IMG/VR virus record: IMGVR_UViG_3300021363_000008
Location: 1-45,587 of that record
Strand: one strand, 5' to 3'
Source of the DNA: a virus
Length of the DNA stretch: 45,587 bases
The notes under the pieces: generated by a model
The model's input: the letters and a program-made list of their open reading frames with translations, nothing else
Told to the model about the DNA's origin: nothing
The model's database searches: none
In this document: in pieces, positions 904-37,553 of the stretch
Layout: each line of letters opens with the position of its first letter
Position numbering within the stretch: position 1 is the stretch's first letter
Made by a program: the position numbers and the translations under genes

Positions 904-1583
904 GGCAGCCTCGCGAAAGCGATTCGCCACACCCACGGATTGAAGTCCCATCCCTTCGGCTCGTAGATCCCATTGATCTCCGTCCACAGTGCCCGATAGG
1001 CGTTGCGCGCGTTTCGGTAGCTCTTGCCGCCCGCGATGCCCCAGCCGTCGCCGACCGGGACGATTCCCTCGGCCCCCGCGTCCTCCTCGGTGATGTCCTG
1101 CAGGCGCTGGGGCGTCGGCTCCTCGGTCACCGTCAGCGTGATGCGCGAGGCCCGTCGGGGCATGAAGATCGACGGGCGTCTCTTCCCGGCGGCGCCAGCG
1201 CATCCAGTGTTCGCGGTCTGCGGATCGGCCCAGTACCAAGCCCAATGCCCGGTAAGCTGGCTGGCGCGAAGATGGTCCTCGTCGAGCCGCCGTGCCCACG
1301 TCTCTTTGACCCAGAGCCGGTCCCCCTTCTCCCACCGCGGATAATGCCGGTGGCACGGGTTCAGGTTGCCGCGCTCGTCACGCCCGGCGTCCGCATCCTG
1401 CGGGTGGTGGTGGGGGACGCACAGGCGACGGACGCCGGCCGGGTTGTCGGTGAACGCGCGGTCGAAGTAGTGGGGGTGCGACTTTGGGCCCTGCCAGGTC
1501 ACGAGACGGCGGGTTTGGGTCTTGGTGCCGGCGAGCAGGGCGCGGATCATCGGAGCGCTCATCAAAATAGGGTGCTCTTTCAT
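900..1583 (-). CDS. ASCH-like phage protein
   Basis: 227 residues. The N-terminus, PMIRALLAGTKTQTRRLV, is the hallmark of a widespread phage family (often labelled morphogenesis or ASCH-like) in which a small-molecule or RNA-binding beta barrel is suspected. Other matching blocks are GDRLWVKETWA, SRITLTVTEEPTPQRLQDIT with the following E-D-A-x-A-E-G, and a C-terminal W-x-x-I-N-G block. A role in nucleotide or RNA recognition is only inferred from the fold. It overlaps both neighbours by 4 bases. Confidence 0.8.
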   Translation of the reverse strand: MKEHPILMSAPMIRALLAGTKTQTRRLVTWQGPKSHPHYFDRAFTDNPAGVRRLCVPHHHPQDADAGRDERGNLNPCHRHYPRWEKGDRLWVKETWARRLDEDHLRASQLTGHWAWYWADPQTANTGCAGAAGKRRPSIFMPRRASRITLTVTEEPTPQRLQDITEEDAGAEGIVPVGDGWGIAGGKSYRNARNAYRALWTEINGIYEPKGWDFNPWVWRIAFARLP

Positions 1584-1876
1584 TCGCCACGCTCCGCACG
1601 AGCGGCGTCGGCGTCCTTGACCTTGTCGGCGTGCAGGGCCTCGGCGCGAATGTTCTCCGAGATGACGCAGCCCTTCGAACCGCGCTCCTCGTGCTCCTGC
1701 GCGATTTCGACGGCATCCCAGAGCGCGACGGCCCGGCCGTCGTTGTAGCCCTCGCGCAGCGCCGCCGCCCGGATCTCGCGGTCACGGGCGACGACGGCGT
1801 TCAGCCATTGCTGCTCGGCTCCCTCCTCGCCTTCGCCGTAGTAGACGTCGTGGACGAACTGGGCGGCGGTCTTCAT
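1580..1876 (-). CDS. hypothetical phage protein, acidic helical
   Basis: 98 residues from the ATG at 1876-1874, which overlaps the stop of the DUF5131 gene; the open frame extends further upstream but that part lies inside the DUF5131 gene. The sequence (MKTAAQFVHDVYYGEG, then long helices with EIRAAALREGYNDGRAVA) looks like a small phage protein of unknown role. The C-terminus is charged and probably helical. Confidence 0.75.
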   Translation of the reverse strand: MKTAAQFVHDVYYGEGEEGAEQQWLNAVVARDREIRAAALREGYNDGRAVALWDAVEIAQEHEERGSKGCVISENIRAEALHADKVKDADAARAERGE

Positions 1877-2865
1877 CGGGGGAACTCCCGGGGCCAGTCG
1901 TAGGGCGGCCAGTATTGGGGATCGCCGCCCTTCGGGTCGCCGTGGGCCTTGCCCTCTGGCGTGGCGATCTGCTTGGTGAACACCGCCACGCGGGCGATAA
2001 AGCACTGGTCGACGATCGCGCGCGCCCACGCGACATCCATCGGGCGCGCACCGGGCCCACTCTCACTCCCGACCACGACCCACGAGAGGCCGCGATCGCG
2101 CGCGGCCCAGTATTTCCAGTCGTCCCATTCCTCGGCATTGGCCAGCGGCTTGGTGGGGACGTCCTCGGGCGGATCGGACACCGCCGGCATGGCGAACCTG
2201 ATCGGCCCCAGTAGCGGCTCGGCGCTCACCCATCTGACCGCCGCCGGCGTCGCCAGCAGCAGCGGGATCCGCTCGTCGGCCGTTGGCTGGTCCTCGGCGC
2301 TGACGCCCAGCCAGACGTTCGGGAGCGGCCACAGAGCACCGTCCAATGTTTCGGTCCAGCTTCGGCCATGGATGGCCGGGCTCCCGATGATGCAGCTTGC
2401 TTCGCGGCACACGCTCCTCAGCGGATCCAACTCATCGGCCTTGACCCACGCGAACCAGTTCCGCATCCGCTCGGCGCGCTTCGTCAGGATCTGGAATTGG
2501 TGCTGAGGCGCTGCCGCCATCACGCCGAACACCGCCGCGATCTGCTCGTTGGTCAACGCCTCGTGGAAGAGATCTGACATCGAATTCACGAAGATCTTCT
2601 GTGGCTTCTTCCAGCCGAGAGGATCCGCCAAGCGGTCGGCCACGAGCTTGACCTCGCCCGTCCAGCGCGGGCCGCCCTTCGTCATGCGCGTGAGGCCGGC
2701 GTACAGGTCCTTGGTGTGCGGCATCGTCGCGAGGCGGTGGGCCATCCGCTCGGCGTAGCAGCCACCGCCCTTGACGGCGCCGTCGCCGCAGCCCGCCGAC
2801 ACACGCGAGCAACCGATCGTCGGGTTCCAGACCTTGTCGGTCCACTGTATTGACGAATCAGCCAT
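1873..2865 (-). CDS. DUF5131 (phage Gp37/Gp68) family protein
   Basis: 330 residues from the ATG at 2865-2863 (MADSSIQWTDKVWNPTIGC); the longer frame upstream overlaps the HNH gene and is rejected. Family marks are W-N-P-T-I-G-C-S-R-V-S, G-G-C-Y-A-E-R-M-A-H-R, KIFVNSMSDLFHEA, F-Q-I-L-T-K-R and WVVVGSESGPGARPM. The three cysteines and fold are reminiscent of radical-SAM proteins such as spore photoproduct lyase, but catalysis has not been settled. Here about eight residues separate the second and third cysteine, where many relatives have two. Its start shares one base with the HNH stop (TGATG). Confidence 0.9.
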   Translation of the reverse strand: MADSSIQWTDKVWNPTIGCSRVSAGCGDGAVKGGGCYAERMAHRLATMPHTKDLYAGLTRMTKGGPRWTGEVKLVADRLADPLGWKKPQKIFVNSMSDLFHEALTNEQIAAVFGVMAAAPQHQFQILTKRAERMRNWFAWVKADELDPLRSVCREASCIIGSPAIHGRSWTETLDGALWPLPNVWLGVSAEDQPTADERIPLLLATPAAVRWVSAEPLLGPIRFAMPAVSDPPEDVPTKPLANAEEWDDWKYWAARDRGLSWVVVGSESGPGARPMDVAWARAIVDQCFIARVAVFTKQIATPEGKAHGDPKGGDPQYWPPYDWPREFPR

Positions 2866-33637: not shown

Positions 33638-34198
33638 GGGTGGCTCCTCGGTTGTGAAGTGATCGGCGATTCGGCACGTGACGCCGCCGCGTGCAGCGGG
33701 AACGATTGCGGTGTGGTTGCCGCGGATCTGGCGCTGGATGCCGTCGTAGGCGACGCCGTCAGGCGTGGTGCCGGACTTCGCGTCCAGCTCGAACGAGTAG
33801 CCGTTCGAGATCTGCGAGGTGCCATCAAGAACGGCGCGCACGGCCTGGTGATCGCGGATCATCACCTGGCCTTTCATCTCGACGCCGTCGACCTTGACGT
33901 CGCGGACGTCGCCGACGGCGACGAGCTTCCAGTTCTTGGCGTTGACGTTTTCGGTCGGGTGCTTGAACGTGATCGTCCCCGACTCGAAGGACGCGACCGA
34001 ATCCGTCGCCGAGACCTCCTCGGGCGGCCGGTAAAGGCGCAGTGTCCGGTTCTCGCCCGGCAGCCCAAGCTCGCGCGAGCTGTACTCCTGCACGTTGCCG
34101 GCGCGCGCCAGCACCGCGGGCGCCAGCAGAAACCCTTCGTCGGTGATCCGGCGAGCCGTGATGCCGACCAGGTCGACGGCGTTGCAGCGCACGCTCAC
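32978..34198 (-). CDS. prohead protease with scaffold tail, DUF2213-like
   Basis: 406 residues from GTG 34198 (GTGA overlap with the head morphogenesis gene). Residues 1-185 are the DUF2213 protease part: T-D-E-G-F-L, R-P-P-E-E-V-S, FKHPTENVNAKNWKLVAVGD, V-M-I-R-D, GYSFELDAKSGTTPDGVAYD and N-H-T-A-I-V, the last holding a likely active His. From about 188 the protein is an Ala/Lys/Glu-rich helical scaffold ending in a conserved Y-M-S-R-L tail. Confidence 0.85.
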   Translation of the reverse strand: MSVRCNAVDLVGITARRITDEGFLLAPAVLARAGNVQEYSSRELGLPGENRTLRLYRPPEEVSATDSVASFESGTITFKHPTENVNAKNWKLVAVGDVRDVKVDGVEMKGQVMIRDHQAVRAVLDGTSQISNGYSFELDAKSGTTPDGVAYDGIQRQIRGNHTAIVPAARGGVTCRIADHFTTEEPPMSTRTIVLDGVSLDLESTQASLVEKIVGDAKRAEKAATDAFAAATKEVTDARTALKTATDATTKLVADHAAVVADLTAKILKPEQIEALAAERAKVVGDAALLCPEFKPAGKTVPAIRAEVLATVIASDEALKPVALAVLGGVAPTAAADPIVRAAFDAVIAARGTRADDGAARARDAETARAFAGDPNAAGQAPPLRGRDLYMSRLQAGFAPDRAAAK

Positions 34199-36117
34199 GC
34201 GGCCACCTGCTCCTGCTCAACGCCGGCGTCGAGCTCGTCGAGGTTGAAGACGGGGATCGGGACGCAGCGACAGTTGTGTGTTACGATTCCGCCCGTTACG
34301 TACCAGCCGACCGAGGTCTCCAGGTTGAACACATGCCCAGACCACCCATTGATTCGGAGCGCCTTGACCACGCGGCTCGCCTTCTGGGCGAAGGGAAGAC
34401 ACTGCGGGAGGCGGCCCGAATCGTCGGCGTCGGGGATGACGCCCTCTCTCGCCGCTTGCGCGAAAGAGGTGTGCGGACCGACCTCCGGGCTGGCCGAGCG
34501 TCCTGGAACCGTCACGAGATCGACGTGCCCGCCCTCGTATCCGCCTACTTGTCTGGCGAGAGCGTGCTGTCGCTGGCCAAGCGCCTCGGCGTCGAAAGGA
34601 TCGTGCTCGACCGAAGGCTCGCCGAGGCCGGCGTTCACAAGCGCGGCGAGTCCGAAGCCAATCGCTTGAGGATGCAGCGCCTGACGCAAGAAGAACGCCA
34701 GCGTCTGTCCGCTGCGGCGCACGAGGCGGTCCGCGGCCGACACCACACGGAGGAGCATCAGCGAAAGCGGGCCAACGCCCGAGAGAGAGTCAGGGGTGTT
34801 GGCGAGGCTGAGTTGGTTGCCGCGCTTCGCTCGGCCGGGGGAAAGGACATCGATCAGCAGCGACCGTGCGGGAAGTACAACCTCGACCTCGCCGTCGGTT
34901 CCGTCGCCGTGGAAGTCATCAACTCGAAGATCGCGCGTGTAACGGGCGCCGCCGCCCGCCGCCGCTTCGAATACCTCCGCGATCAGGGGTGGACGATCCT
35001 GGTGGTCTTTTTCTGCCGACTTGACGATCTGCTTGGCAACCTCGATCACGTCGTCGCCCTCATTGAGCGCGCCGATCGGCATCCACCCGCGGCTGGTAAG
35101 CACTGGATGATTCGGTGTGGCGCGGAGCGTTTTGCCAGACTCCGTGACGATCTCGGCCAATTCGCCGCTGAACCAACGGCGGTACGCTTTTTTCACGTCG
35201 TGAGCGAACTCGATCTGTGACTCGCCAGGCAGGCAGTTGATCGGCTGGCCCGGGTGGGCCGGCTCGCCGTCGACCTCCGGGGGCTGGTCCCAGCGGTGGG
35301 TCGTGCCGTTCAAGGCTGCGTGCGAGCGCCGGACGCGCTCGTCTTGCACGGTCGACCAGATGTAACGGTCGATGCCGAGTGAGCGCTGGCGCACGCGGTT
35401 GAAGTCGCTGTTTAGTTTTCCCGTCTGGTCACGGGCGATCAGCTTGGCGCGCGATTCGGTGACGTCGCCGACCTGCTGGATCGTCTTGGCCAGCGATTCC
35501 CAGCGCGCGCCGTCCGTCCAGCTCTTGTCAATCGCCTCGCGCAGGCGCTCGAAATACTCGACGGGGATCGACTTGATGAGCGCGACGTTGGCCTCGATGG
35601 CTGCGTCGACCTCGGACGCTATCCGGGTGTCGGCATGGATGACGGCGCGCAGATCGATGCCGACGGACTCGTGGATCGCCTTGCCCAGCCGCTCGTCGAC
35701 CTCGCCCAGGTTCTTGCGGGCCGCCAGGGTGGCAAGCCGGCGCGCCTGGACCTCGAGGCCCCCGAACCTGGCCGCTTCCTCCTCGAGCAAGGACGGCAGG
35801 ATCGGATCGGTTTCATCGGCGGCGGTGAGTTGCCCGTCGTTGCCCCGGGACACGGCCCTCGGCCACGACGAGCGCAGCCCTTCCCCGATCCTCGAGCCGA
35901 CGCGGCGGAGCACTTTGACGATCGCCCCCAGCTCGGCCCGGTACCAAAGCTCGGCCCGGTGACTCGGCCGGATCGGGCGCAGGCGGCGCATGTCCCGCTT
36001 GCGCAGCCGGGCGGTCCGCGGGTGAAGGGCGGCGATGTGGCGTAGGGCGATGTGCAGCAAGGCATCGTCAACGGTGTGCCGATCGCGCCGGATCTGAAGT
36101 TTTCGAAAATCGCCCAT
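34195..36117 (-). CDS. Mu gpF/SPP1 gp7-like head morphogenesis protein with in-frame intein
   Basis: 640 residues before splicing, 319 after. The extein has FERLREAIDKSWTDGARWES, R-A-K-L-I-A-R-D-Q-T-G-K-L-N, Y-I-W-S-T-V-Q-D-E-R-V-R-x-S-H-A-A-L-N-G and H-P-G-Q-P-I-N then C-R-C-V-P-I-P-V, the family's C-terminal signature, interrupted by the intein between N and C. The ATG at 36117 is used; a TTG at 36126 is possible. The protein is a minor head component acting with the portal, whose gene diverges from this one. Confidence 0.9.
   Translation of the reverse strand: MGDFRKLQIRRDRHTVDDALLHIALRHIAALHPRTARLRKRDMRRLRPIRPSHRAELWYRAELGAIVKVLRRVGSRIGEGLRSSWPRAVSRGNDGQLTAADETDPILPSLLEEEAARFGGLEVQARRLATLAARKNLGEVDERLGKAIHESVGIDLRAVIHADTRIASEVDAAIEANVALIKSIPVEYFERLREAIDKSWTDGARWESLAKTIQQVGDVTESRAKLIARDQTGKLNSDFNRVRQRSLGIDRYIWSTVQDERVRRSHAALNGTTHRWDQPPEVDGEPAHPGQPINCLPGESQIEFAHDVKKAYRRWFSGELAEIVTESGKTLRATPNHPVLTSRGWMPIGALNEGDDVIEVAKQIVKSAEKDHQDRPPLIAEVFEAAAGGGARYTRDLRVDDFHGDGTDGEVEVVLPARSLLIDVLSPGRAKRGNQLSLANTPDSLSGVGPLSLMLLRVVSAADRLVRRSGQTLAFFLRQALHPQAIGFGLAALVNAGLGEPSVEHDPFDAEALGQRQHALARQVGGYEGGHVDLVTVPGRSASPEVGPHTSFAQAAREGVIPDADDSGRLPQCLPFAQKASRVVKALRINGWSGHVFNLETSVGWYVTGGIVTHNCRCVPIPVFNLDELDAGVEQEQVAA
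34273..35235 (-). other. intein, 321 residues (residues 295-615 of host protein)
   Basis: Block A is C-L-P-G-E-S at Cys295. Block B is KTLRATPNHPVLTSRGWMPI, with T-P-N-H. Blocks F/G are G-H-V-F-N-L-E-T-S-V-G-W-Y-V-T-G-G-I-V-T-H-N, followed by Cys+1 (C-R-C). All residues for class-1 splicing are present. The middle, about 190 residues, contains DDFHGDGTDGEVEVVLPARS and has no LAGLIDADG or HNH motif on this strand. The homing nuclease lies on the other strand of the same DNA. Confidence 0.88.
34333..35220 (+). CDS. homing endonuclease encoded antisense within the intein
   Basis: 295 residues from ATG 34333; a GTG at 34276 would start 3 bases inside the intein's end. Two HTH-like units occur, LREAARIVGVGDDALSRRLR and SVLSLAKRLGVERIVLDRRL, as in the DNA-binding tails of homing nucleases, plus a NUMOD3-like R-G-R-H-H-T-E-E-H-Q-R-K-R. 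The nuclease core GKYNLDLAVGSVAVEVI with FEYLRDQGWTILVVFF resembles Vsr-like (EDxHD-type) enzymes. The stop at 35218-35220 falls 13 bases inside the intein's N-terminal edge. The whole gene overlaps the intein frame on the minus strand. Confidence 0.82.
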   Translation: MPRPPIDSERLDHAARLLGEGKTLREAARIVGVGDDALSRRLRERGVRTDLRAGRASWNRHEIDVPALVSAYLSGESVLSLAKRLGVERIVLDRRLAEAGVHKRGESEANRLRMQRLTQEERQRLSAAAHEAVRGRHHTEEHQRKRANARERVRGVGEAELVAALRSAGGKDIDQQRPCGKYNLDLAVGSVAVEVINSKIARVTGAAARRRFEYLRDQGWTILVVFFCRLDDLLGNLDHVVALIERADRHPPAAGKHWMIRCGAERFARLRDDLGQFAAEPTAVRFFHVVSELDL

Positions 36118-36142
36118 TCTGTACAAGCCGGTCCGGGCGGGT

Positions 36143-36185
36143 CACGCTGACCCCCATGGACGAGGTCAAGACACCGGTCAGCGTG
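36143..36185 (+). promoter_or_regulatory. hairpin enclosing the portal start codon
   Basis: CACGCTGACC (36143-36152) pairs perfectly with GGTCAGCGTG (36176-36185); the 23-base loop contains the ATG at 36156. No Shine-Dalgarno-like sequence precedes the ATG. Such a structure could limit portal translation, which needs only 12 copies per head. Confidence 0.5.
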
Positions 36186-37553
36186 GTGGCCGCCGATGGG
36201 CTGCAGAACGTGGTGTCGGCCCTGGGCACGAGCCGGGACAAGCATTCCTACACCACCTTCACGATCCCGCTGGCCCAGAACAAGACGGATCTAGACGCCA
36301 TGTTCAAGTCGGTCTGGTTGGCGCGCCGGATCGTCACGCTGGTGGCCAAGGACATGACCCGCGCCTGGCTCAAGCTCAGCTGGGACGGTTACGACGACGA
36401 CGAGGGCGGGGCCAAGGAGATCCAGCGCGCCGAGGTGGCGCTCGGCCTGCGACAGAAGGTCACCCTGGCCGAGATGTGGTGCCGCCTTTACGGCGGCTCC
36501 GTGATCGTGCTGTGCATGGCGGGCGAGGATTACAGCAAGCCGCTGGTCGTCGAGACCGTCAAGAGGGGGACGTTAGCCCACCTGCAGGTGCTCGATCGGC
36601 ACGAGATCGTTGCCGAAGGCGATCTAGACGCGGAGTTTGGGACGCCCAACTATGGGCTGCCACTGTTTTACAAGTGCACCCGCCCAGGGGCCGACAAGCT
36701 CGGCCTCATTCACTGGACCCGGGTGGTCCGGTTCGACGGCGCCGAGCTGCCCCACGAGCTGTGGGTGCAAAACCAGATGTGGGGCGACAGCGTCCTGCAA
36801 TCCCCGAACGACTCGCTGAAAAACTATCAGACCGCCACCCAGAGCGCGGGCTCGATGATCCATGAAGCGACCGTCGACATCATCCGGGCCGAGGGCCTGG
36901 CCGACCAGCTGTCGACGCCCGCGGGCACCGAGAACGTCATCAAGCGCTTCCTCAACGCGATGATGATGAAGTCCATCAATCACACGCTGCTGCTCGACAA
37001 GAACGAGGAGTACGAGCAGAAAACCACCCAGTTCGCGGGGCTGACGAACATCATCGCCAACTTCCTGACCGATATGTGCGGCGCGGCCGGCATCCCGGCC
37101 ACCAAGCTGTTCGGGATGAGCCCAGCGGGCCTCAACGCCACCGGCGAATCCGACACCCGCAACTACTACGACGACGTGTCGGTCTGCCAGGAGACCGAGC
37201 TGCGGCCCAGGCTGCTGCGCATCTATGAAGTCCTGGTCAGGTCGGTGCGCGGTCGCATGCCGGAGGGGTTCGACTTCAAATTCAATCCGCTGTGGCAGAT
37301 CAGTAAGACCGAGGAGGCCACGATCCGGAAGACCGAGGCCGACACCGACGCGGTCTACTTGCAGCAGGGCGTGCTGACCGAGGGCGCGATCGCGCGCGAG
37401 CTGCGGGACCGGGGGACCTACCGGACGCTTGAGGATGCTGACGTCACGCTGGCCGAGGAACTGGCGCTTCAGCCCGACCCGGTGCCAGTCGTGGGGTCGA
37501 ACGGCGTGCCCAAGGCGGCCGTGCCGCCGAAGTCGGCGCCCGCGGCAGTCTAG
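36156..37553 (+). CDS. portal protein, DUF1073-like
   Basis: 465 residues. Family marks are YTTFTIPLAQNKTDLDAMFK, S-V-W-L-A-R-R-I-V, W-C-R-L-Y-G-G-S-V-I, W-G-D-S-V-L-Q-S-P-N-D-S-L, K-L-F-G-M-S-P-A-G-L-N-A-T-G-E-S-D, and the Pro/Ala tail. It forms the dodecameric DNA channel. Unusually it lies on the plus strand, opposite to the terminase and all other virion genes. Only 38 bases separate its ATG from the divergent head gene's. Its TAG overlaps the TAG of the convergent gene at 37550 (CTAG). Confidence 0.92.
   Translation: MDEVKTPVSVVAADGLQNVVSALGTSRDKHSYTTFTIPLAQNKTDLDAMFKSVWLARRIVTLVAKDMTRAWLKLSWDGYDDDEGGAKEIQRAEVALGLRQKVTLAEMWCRLYGGSVIVLCMAGEDYSKPLVVETVKRGTLAHLQVLDRHEIVAEGDLDAEFGTPNYGLPLFYKCTRPGADKLGLIHWTRVVRFDGAELPHELWVQNQMWGDSVLQSPNDSLKNYQTATQSAGSMIHEATVDIIRAEGLADQLSTPAGTENVIKRFLNAMMMKSINHTLLLDKNEEYEQKTTQFAGLTNIIANFLTDMCGAAGIPATKLFGMSPAGLNATGESDTRNYYDDVSVCQETELRPRLLRIYEVLVRSVRGRMPEGFDFKFNPLWQISKTEEATIRKTEADTDAVYLQQGVLTEGAIARELRDRGTYRTLEDADVTLAEELALQPDPVPVVGSNGVPKAAVPPKSAPAAV

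Follow-up and report, generated by a model that had tools for sequence, protein, structure and literature searches.

The window analysed here is a stretch of viral DNA of 45,587 nucleotides (IMG/VR record IMGVR_UViG_3300021363_000008, positions 1 to 45,587), and the element under study is an intein that interrupts a MuF-type minor head gene on its minus strand. Very probably the intein is mobile, and its homing endonuclease is encoded by a gene of its own that is nested antisense within it. The selected strand switches along the element, from minus in the flanks and the ends of the Hint domain to plus, the nuclease strand, in the middle.

The intein and the antisense gene nested in it

The features of the locus are given below. 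Codon differences are classed as silent (S) or not (N), first in the nuclease and second in the intein frame, so that SN/NS above 1 marks selection on the plus strand; model confidence is given as the predicted local distance difference test (pLDDT), and database matches with their E-value (E).

34195..35991, minus strand: MuF/SPP1-gp7-like minor head (head morphogenesis) gene, interrupted by the intein (PF04233, E 9e-15; TIGR01641, E 4.7e-15; phrog_324/15127)
35236..35991, minus strand: N-extein, last residues ...GQPIN at the insertion site (own intein profile)
34195..34272, minus strand: C-extein, first residues CRCVPIPVFNLD
34273..35235, minus strand: intein of 321 amino acids, Cys1...His320-Asn321 followed by Cys+1 (own profile, TIGR01445, alignment of 40 inteins, Hint fold)
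35020..35235, minus strand: N-terminal half of Hint, intein residues 1-72, with block B T40-x-x-H43 (pLDDT 86-97; minus-strand selection, SN/NS 0.31 over codons 1-60)
34852..35004, minus strand: extra intein segment, residues 78-128, with F-H-G-D at 108-111 (pLDDT mostly >70; codons 61-125 constrained in both frames)
34411..34848, minus strand: intein linker, residues 130-275, mostly disordered (pLDDT mostly <50; near-neutral as protein, SN/SS 0.77 in the middle)
34273..34389, minus strand: C-terminal half of Hint, residues 283-321, with blocks F and G (pLDDT 86-95; SN/NS 0.08 over the last 21 codons)
34333..35220, plus strand: antisense nuclease gene of 295 amino acids, with two helix-turn-helix (HTH) units and a Vsr-like domain
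34333..34473, plus strand: nuclease HTH 1, residues 1-47 (structural alignment; PF13542, E 0.0026, below cut-off)
34504..34641, plus strand: nuclease HTH 2, residues 58-103, resolvase-like (5cy1_A, Z 6.7; profile matches to resolvase HTHs)
34789..35082, plus strand: Vsr/I-Bth0305I/DUF559-like catalytic domain, residues 153-250, with E158, Y182, D185 and E194 (1cw0_A, 3r3p_A, 3hrl)
34322..34325, plus strand: Shine-Dalgarno-like AGGT, 7 nucleotides before the nuclease ATG and within intein block F (weaker than the GGAGGT of many relatives)
34903..34914, plus strand: doubly constrained motif, nuclease V-A-V-E (191-194) over intein F-H-G-D (108-111), with near-fixed silent positions

The junctions of the intein read PIN/CLPGES and IVTHN/CRCV, its score with TIGR01445 (the NCBIfam model of the intein N-terminal splicing region) is above the cut-off, and C1, T40, H43 and N321 are invariant in the alignment of 40 inteins. 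The structural model was confident over both Hint halves, fairly confident over residues 81-128 or so and mostly below pLDDT 50 over the linker, and the leading Foldseek matches were inteins. Judged by sequence and model, the minus-strand element is a complete Hint intein with predicted splicing, and the sequence-only reading of this DNA, which had placed a complete intein in a head gene at 34273-35235, was borne out by PF04233, TIGR01641, TIGR01445 and the junctions. No nuclease was matched by Pfam or NCBIfam in the intein's own (minus) frame. The longest open reading frame (ORF) of the head gene spans 34195-36126, with a TTG at 36126; the ATG at 35991, from which the protein would begin MRRLRPIRPSHR..., is the likely start.

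The 295-residue plus-strand protein proposed in the same reading does lie wholly within the intein and in exact codon register, each of its codons being the reverse complement of an intein codon, with position 1 facing position 3. The overlap exceeds the linker, in that the C-terminal part of the nuclease lies opposite the N-terminal half of Hint. An AlphaFold2 model using 48 relatives (mean pLDDT 90, predicted template modelling score 0.64) consists of two HTH units, helices and an alpha/beta domain from about residue 153. Using VIA-align 2, this C-terminal domain was aligned on Vsr (1cw0_A) with Z 10.8 over 112 residues at 2.6 Å, and the nuclease on the I-Bth0305I catalytic domain (3r3p_A) and 3hrl with Z 9.1 and 8.3, respectively. 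By sequence, the family profile found 3hrl (E 3e-6) and 3r3p (E 7e-5). Single-sequence Pfam matches of the window protein were weak and below cut-off (HTH_Tnp_ISL3, E 0.0026; MTES_1575, E 0.042), and NCBIfam PRK09767 (DUF559) reached E 6e-5, far under its cut-off. At E ≤ 0.01, MTES_1575 matched 29 and DUF559 8 of the 48 relatives, the window itself remaining below the curated cut-off. D185 and E194 are invariant among 53 nuclease sequences and E158 is present in at least 90% of them; the window has all three. A Vsr/I-Bth0305I-like endonuclease fold is supported by these models, in agreement with the Vsr-like assignment first made from the letters alone. The two HTH units and the D/E-containing core of that assignment also stood, and a NUMOD3-like patch remained unconfirmed, with no NUMOD family in the Pfam output at E ≤ 1 for the window nor among the 25 families listed for the 48 relatives. 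One detail was wrong: intein D-F-H-G-D-G had been paired with nuclease Y-N-L-D-L-A, but its partner is S-V-A-V-E-V (190-195), and Y-N-L-D (182-185) faces intein V-E-V-V.

Downstream of the head gene lie genes for a DUF2213 head maturation protease, a cement protein and the major capsid protein. The portal gene of the window (Phage_portal_3, E 3e-100; 36156-37553) lies on the plus strand and diverges from the head genes, which are on the minus strand; in L004-L006, portal and head genes share one strand.

Strand-specific selection and embedded start signals

A codon-class test was carried out on 19 pairs of relatives, whereby single-base codon differences were counted by class and divided by opportunity. 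The alignments were made on nucleotides, so the test favours neither frame. SN/NS was 0.09 in the exteins, 0.31 (0.23-0.39) over intein codons 1-60, 1.97 (1.56-2.54) over codons 61-125 and 4.20 (95% interval 3.01-6.13; 18 of 19 pairs) in the middle of the intein, falling to 1.56 (1.05-2.36) at 22-75 codons from the end and 0.08 (0.03-0.16) over the last 21 codons, past the nuclease start. In the middle the nuclease frame gave NS/SS of 0.18 (0.13-0.27), and the intein linker was near neutral, with SN/SS of 0.77 (0.54-1.18); codons 61-125 were constrained in both frames (0.18 nuclease, 0.36 intein). The result also held for the ten closest pairs, and the window compared with its relative L092 gave a middle SN/NS of 5.0. 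Purifying selection on the plus frame of homologues, on which the claim of two coding layers had been staked in advance, is therefore present, and the claim survived.

The nuclease start codon typically faces the His of intein block F; in 76 of 109 nonredundant loci its distance from the end of the intein is 21 codons exactly. A Shine-Dalgarno match of at least 4 nucleotides was found before the nuclease start in 88 of 109 loci, compared with 19 of 190 control ATGs opposite extein His codons, and the intein Leu codon that forms it is CTC in 62 of 73 cases (20 expected from extein usage). The conserved start codon and Shine-Dalgarno sequence support independent translation of the nuclease, as far as sequence can predict it.

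Silent positions of the nuclease are near-fixed at places that the intein requires. In the V-A-V-E motif, A192 is GCC in 99 of 100, V193 GTG in 91 of 94 and E194 GAA in 84 of 102 sequences, and silent positions of the nuclease are likewise near-fixed opposite block B, where the intein has His43 in 106/106 and Thr40 in 104/106. The V-A-V-E codons differ in the two free-standing lineages described below (GTG GCG CTG GAA; ACC GCT ATC GAG), which, for two cases, would fit a constraint from the intein side. The nuclease's C-terminal tail is thus largely dictated by Hint and the linker by the nuclease, and V-A-V-E/F-H-G-D appears to be held by both.

Occurrence, empty sites and probable transfer

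The nuclease-intein arrangement is widespread and SYSTEMATICALLY antisense. A tblastn search with the plus-strand protein matched 125 of 50,697 phage records (Salmonella, Gordonia, Pseudomonas, Klebsiella, Vibrio, Acinetobacter, Edwardsiella, Haemophilus/Aggregatibacter, Escherichia and others). Among the matches listed, the underlying annotations were mostly head genes or hypothetical proteins, and an intein-frame search matched the opposite strand of those same records. Scans of viral contigs were added for a total of 162 loci including near-duplicates, about 114 being nonredundant; a scan of genome contigs gave one locus. At nearly all of the 162 the nuclease lies codon on codon antisense inside a MuF intein, which is typically inserted immediately ahead of the Cys in the MuF CxC motif; in two lineages the nuclease is free-standing.

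Neither frame is broken by a stop within the match in 157 of 162 loci, which range in GC content from 0.39 to 0.73; the other antisense frames generally contain several to dozens of stops. Homologous inteins thus keep the two overlapping coding layers first read in the window. The exceptions are L017, whose stop falls outside the intein; L062, with a stop ahead of the nuclease start codon; L136, with one close to the C terminus of the nuclease; L083, a decayed copy with two nuclease-frame stops; and L009, which is free-standing. L131 is open on both strands yet free-standing. The antisense stop of L017 was considered as a break of the overlap and rejected, since it falls past the end of the intein, on the side of the C-extein. 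Within the overlap no stop was seen, where 645 intein-frame and 508 nuclease-frame TTA/CTA/TCA codons were expected (106 loci); stops set the ORF limits, so this count is partly true by construction and serves as support only.

The Acinetobacter Obolenskvirus phages IME285, P1068 and BUCT629 have identical copies of the nuclease as a free-standing gene that converges on the 3' end of a head gene without an intein. A split intein was rejected for these phages, as the head gene is intein-less and the nuclease free-standing. This nuclease is a natural control: its antisense frame has 12 stops (11.2 expected). This layout, seen at L131 (2920-3789, plus strand) and L162 (3953-4846, plus strand), may be an intermediate or an escape state. 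L131 has 0 antisense stops where 5.2 are expected and so is not a second control; its nuclease has perhaps recently left an intein.

Antisense nesting has, on sequence evidence, arisen more than once, with a second, LAGLIDADG-like family. In Gordonia phage Lennon (L169; 2504-3091, minus strand) and relatives such as Barsten (L172), a different antisense ORF lies in a MuF intein that shares its insertion site with the Vsr-like-bearing intein of Gordonia phage Vivi2. It has a LAGLIDADG-like motif, AAYVAAFIDGEGTVTV, which Pfam LAGLIDADG_3 matches no better than at E 0.26. Homologues are present in cyanophage PP and in Caulobacter phages, and several of these bear an endonuclease annotation (E 2e-6 to 8e-6). 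Between Lennon and Barsten the overlap showed 38 SN vs 3 NS differences, a rate ratio of about 13.6, and the intein flanks 1 vs 13 and 0 vs 10. E. coli phage fEg-Eco06 (L168; 2570-3334, minus strand) has an intein at a second MuF site (DSRTSTT/C ... VKN/CRARDG), again with an antisense HTH-Vsr-type nuclease frame. Out-of-frame intein nucleases are not confined to the antisense strand, because in Xanthomonas phage FoX3 (L170; NC_055837.1, 2467-3189, plus strand) a helicase intein has LAGLIDADG_2 (Pfam E 8e-22) in another frame of the same strand.

Empty sites were found in close relatives, with junctions read from known intein ends. The head gene of Snoke measures 1860 bp with the intein and that of fEg-Eco19 1044 bp without it, a gap of 816 bp or 272 codons at an exact empty site; KpTDp1 bears the intein, and BUCT_49532 and PEAT2 have exact empty sites. 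More distant relatives of the window, L174 and L173, are intein-less and read GDDIQ-CRC and MIWN-CRC at the site. Homologues of the window N-extein occur in 925 phage records vs 125 for the nuclease. The inteins of Snoke and Salmonella phage LSPA1 (L064) are 97.4% identical, with 77-95% identity in 60-nucleotide extein bins, and those of KpTDp1 and L097 are 97.5% identical, with extein bins at 78-95%. In L005/L132 and L016/L103 the intein is no better conserved than the exteins, and dual coding alone therefore does not explain the excess similarity of the other pairs. Recent horizontal transfer of the two intein pairs is the simplest reading that these sequences suggest. With the exact empty sites, it lends indirect support to the early proposal that the nuclease could spread the intein.

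A further observation concerns Escherichia phage Schulenburg (L164), in which the capsid morphogenesis gene (1180-2256, minus strand) has an N-extein almost identical to that of intein-bearing Snoke. Its insertion site reads HFG/C instead of HPN/C, and an HNH endonuclease gene lies downstream; this site possibly escapes the nuclease.

Proposed mechanism, alternatives and significance

In the mechanism proposed, the minus strand encodes a head protein with a Hint intein, which should self-splice, and the plus strand, between and partly over the Hint halves, encodes an HTH-HTH-Vsr-like endonuclease with its own start and a Shine-Dalgarno sequence in block F. On co-infection with an empty-site phage, the nuclease would cut the conserved site before the CRC codons, and repair would copy the element into the cut empty allele. 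Nuclease and intein would move together because a single piece of DNA carries both. The analysis infers splicing of the intein, transcription of the antisense gene, cleavage and gene conversion, as well as any benefit that the overlap may bring.

Several observations weigh against this account. The histidine of the GGxxH motif after E194, found in many other members of the nuclease family, is absent from the window and from its closest relatives L092, L093 and L095, so the activity of the window nuclease could differ. At L083 (2875-3816, plus strand) the nuclease frame has two internal stops and the intein frame is open, and the nuclease can thus decay without the intein. A simple scan of 33700-34400 found no sigma-70-like promoter. 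Finally, the loci were collected with nuclease queries and so do not give the fraction of MuF inteins with an antisense nuclease; a Hint-only query gave 137 records, and 3 of 3 MuF inteins examined closely from that list had an antisense nuclease-like frame.

The nuclease could be kept mainly as a weapon against co-infecting intein-less phages (marker exclusion), with homing as a side effect. Free-standing homologues adjoin intein-less head genes in the Acinetobacter phages and L131, where intein homing cannot be their role, and phage homing endonucleases of other families are known to cause exclusion, according to work cited in PMC7468147. Such a role is compatible with homing, however, and the nuclease is inside an intein at nearly all loci, with empty alleles and recent transfer that match homing; we consider exclusion improbable as the main function.

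It is less probable again that the antisense protein, though real, is degenerating or has lost its nuclease role and serves, for instance, only to regulate the head operon by binding DNA, in an intein now inherited vertically. The missing histidine of the window and several close relatives and the decayed frame of L083 would agree with it, but D185 and E194 are invariant, selection on the middle of the nuclease frame is strong across lineages and in the window-L092 pair, and two intein pairs carry a signal of recent transfer.

That the plus-strand ORF is a by-product, an antisense frame left open in GC-rich DNA and mirroring a conserved intein linker, was rejected as scarcely credible: GC-rich genomes often leave antisense frames open in this register, and the window, at about 67% GC, has many long antisense ORFs, but the arrangement is kept at GC 0.39-0.46, nuclease-silent substitutions in the middle occur at 4.2 times the rate of the reverse class, a result upheld in the ten closest pairs, the plus-strand protein folds confidently as a known nuclease where most of the linker is disordered, one homologue stands free with no intein opposite, and the start codon and Shine-Dalgarno sequence are conserved.

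A mobile intein with a nested antisense nuclease can be compared with several known systems. Vsr-like/EDxHD homing endonucleases were reportedly treated by Dassa et al. in 2009 as part of 'fractured genes'. Those such as I-Bth0305I share the catalytic fold and the conserved E, D and E residues but are intron-encoded or free-standing, whereas the present nuclease is intein-nested and antisense and, in the window, lacks the motif histidine. Canonical large inteins (such as PI-PfuI, PI-SceI and VMA) share the Hint fold, insertion at a conserved residue, empty sites in relatives and nuclease sequence between the Hint halves; their nuclease domain is in frame, whereas here it is a separate gene on the opposite strand and the in-frame linker is mostly disordered and near-neutral. 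According to PMC6801210, all endonuclease domains within inteins are placed in frame at one highly conserved position. Nuclear group I introns carry antisense homing endonuclease genes, and expression and empty-site cleavage have been demonstrated for I-DsqI (PMC9548176). There too the nuclease gene is opposite a self-splicing element, but that element is an RNA intron, which needs no open protein frame of its own where it carries the nuclease gene, whereas both strands of the intein code for protein through the same DNA. The ShiLan domain of phage methylases, which hides an out-of-frame HNH endonuclease and has no splicing domain (PMC11855218), is likewise a phage insertion in frame with its host gene and has its nuclease in another frame of the same DNA; that nuclease is on the same strand and has no detectable ribosome-binding site, in contrast to the antisense Vsr-like nuclease, true intein and conserved Shine-Dalgarno sequence described here.

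The MuF intein itself was noticed earlier, in KMB36 (PMC11162368), in Salmonella UPWr_S phages (PMC8425127) and in a Mu-like phage with mention of a 0.8-kb homing endonuclease (PMC7468147); the excerpts of these papers do not mention an antisense gene with it. The literature covered, which did not extend to Dassa et al. 2009 or a 2025 Gosselin preprint on non-canonical actinobacteriophage inteins, contained no description of a nuclease encoded antisense within an intein.

We raise tentatively, as a possibility that may well fail, a wider proposal: that antisense nesting is recurrent in mobile inteins of tailed phages (at least two unrelated families, Vsr-like and LAGLIDADG-like, and two MuF sites), that the overlap is itself adaptive and that F-H-G-D, from the reverse of the nuclease active site, was taken into the intein fold. 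If true, the overlap would uncouple expression of the nuclease from the structural gene and would shield the nuclease from decay, since insertions and deletions would destroy an essential head protein.

The finding places an antisense-nested nuclease in many phage lineages, well-studied ones among them (Salmonella Jerseyvirus, E. coli Kagunavirus, Klebsiella Jedunavirus and Gordonia phages); in the records of these phages, for the most part, only the head protein is annotated. It would explain puzzling phage intein linkers, and surveys of inteins should cover all six frames. Pairs of laboratory phages with and without the intein are ready for a direct test, and the element offers a natural, replicated case of protein coding on both strands, in which the strand under selection can be clearly mapped along the DNA.

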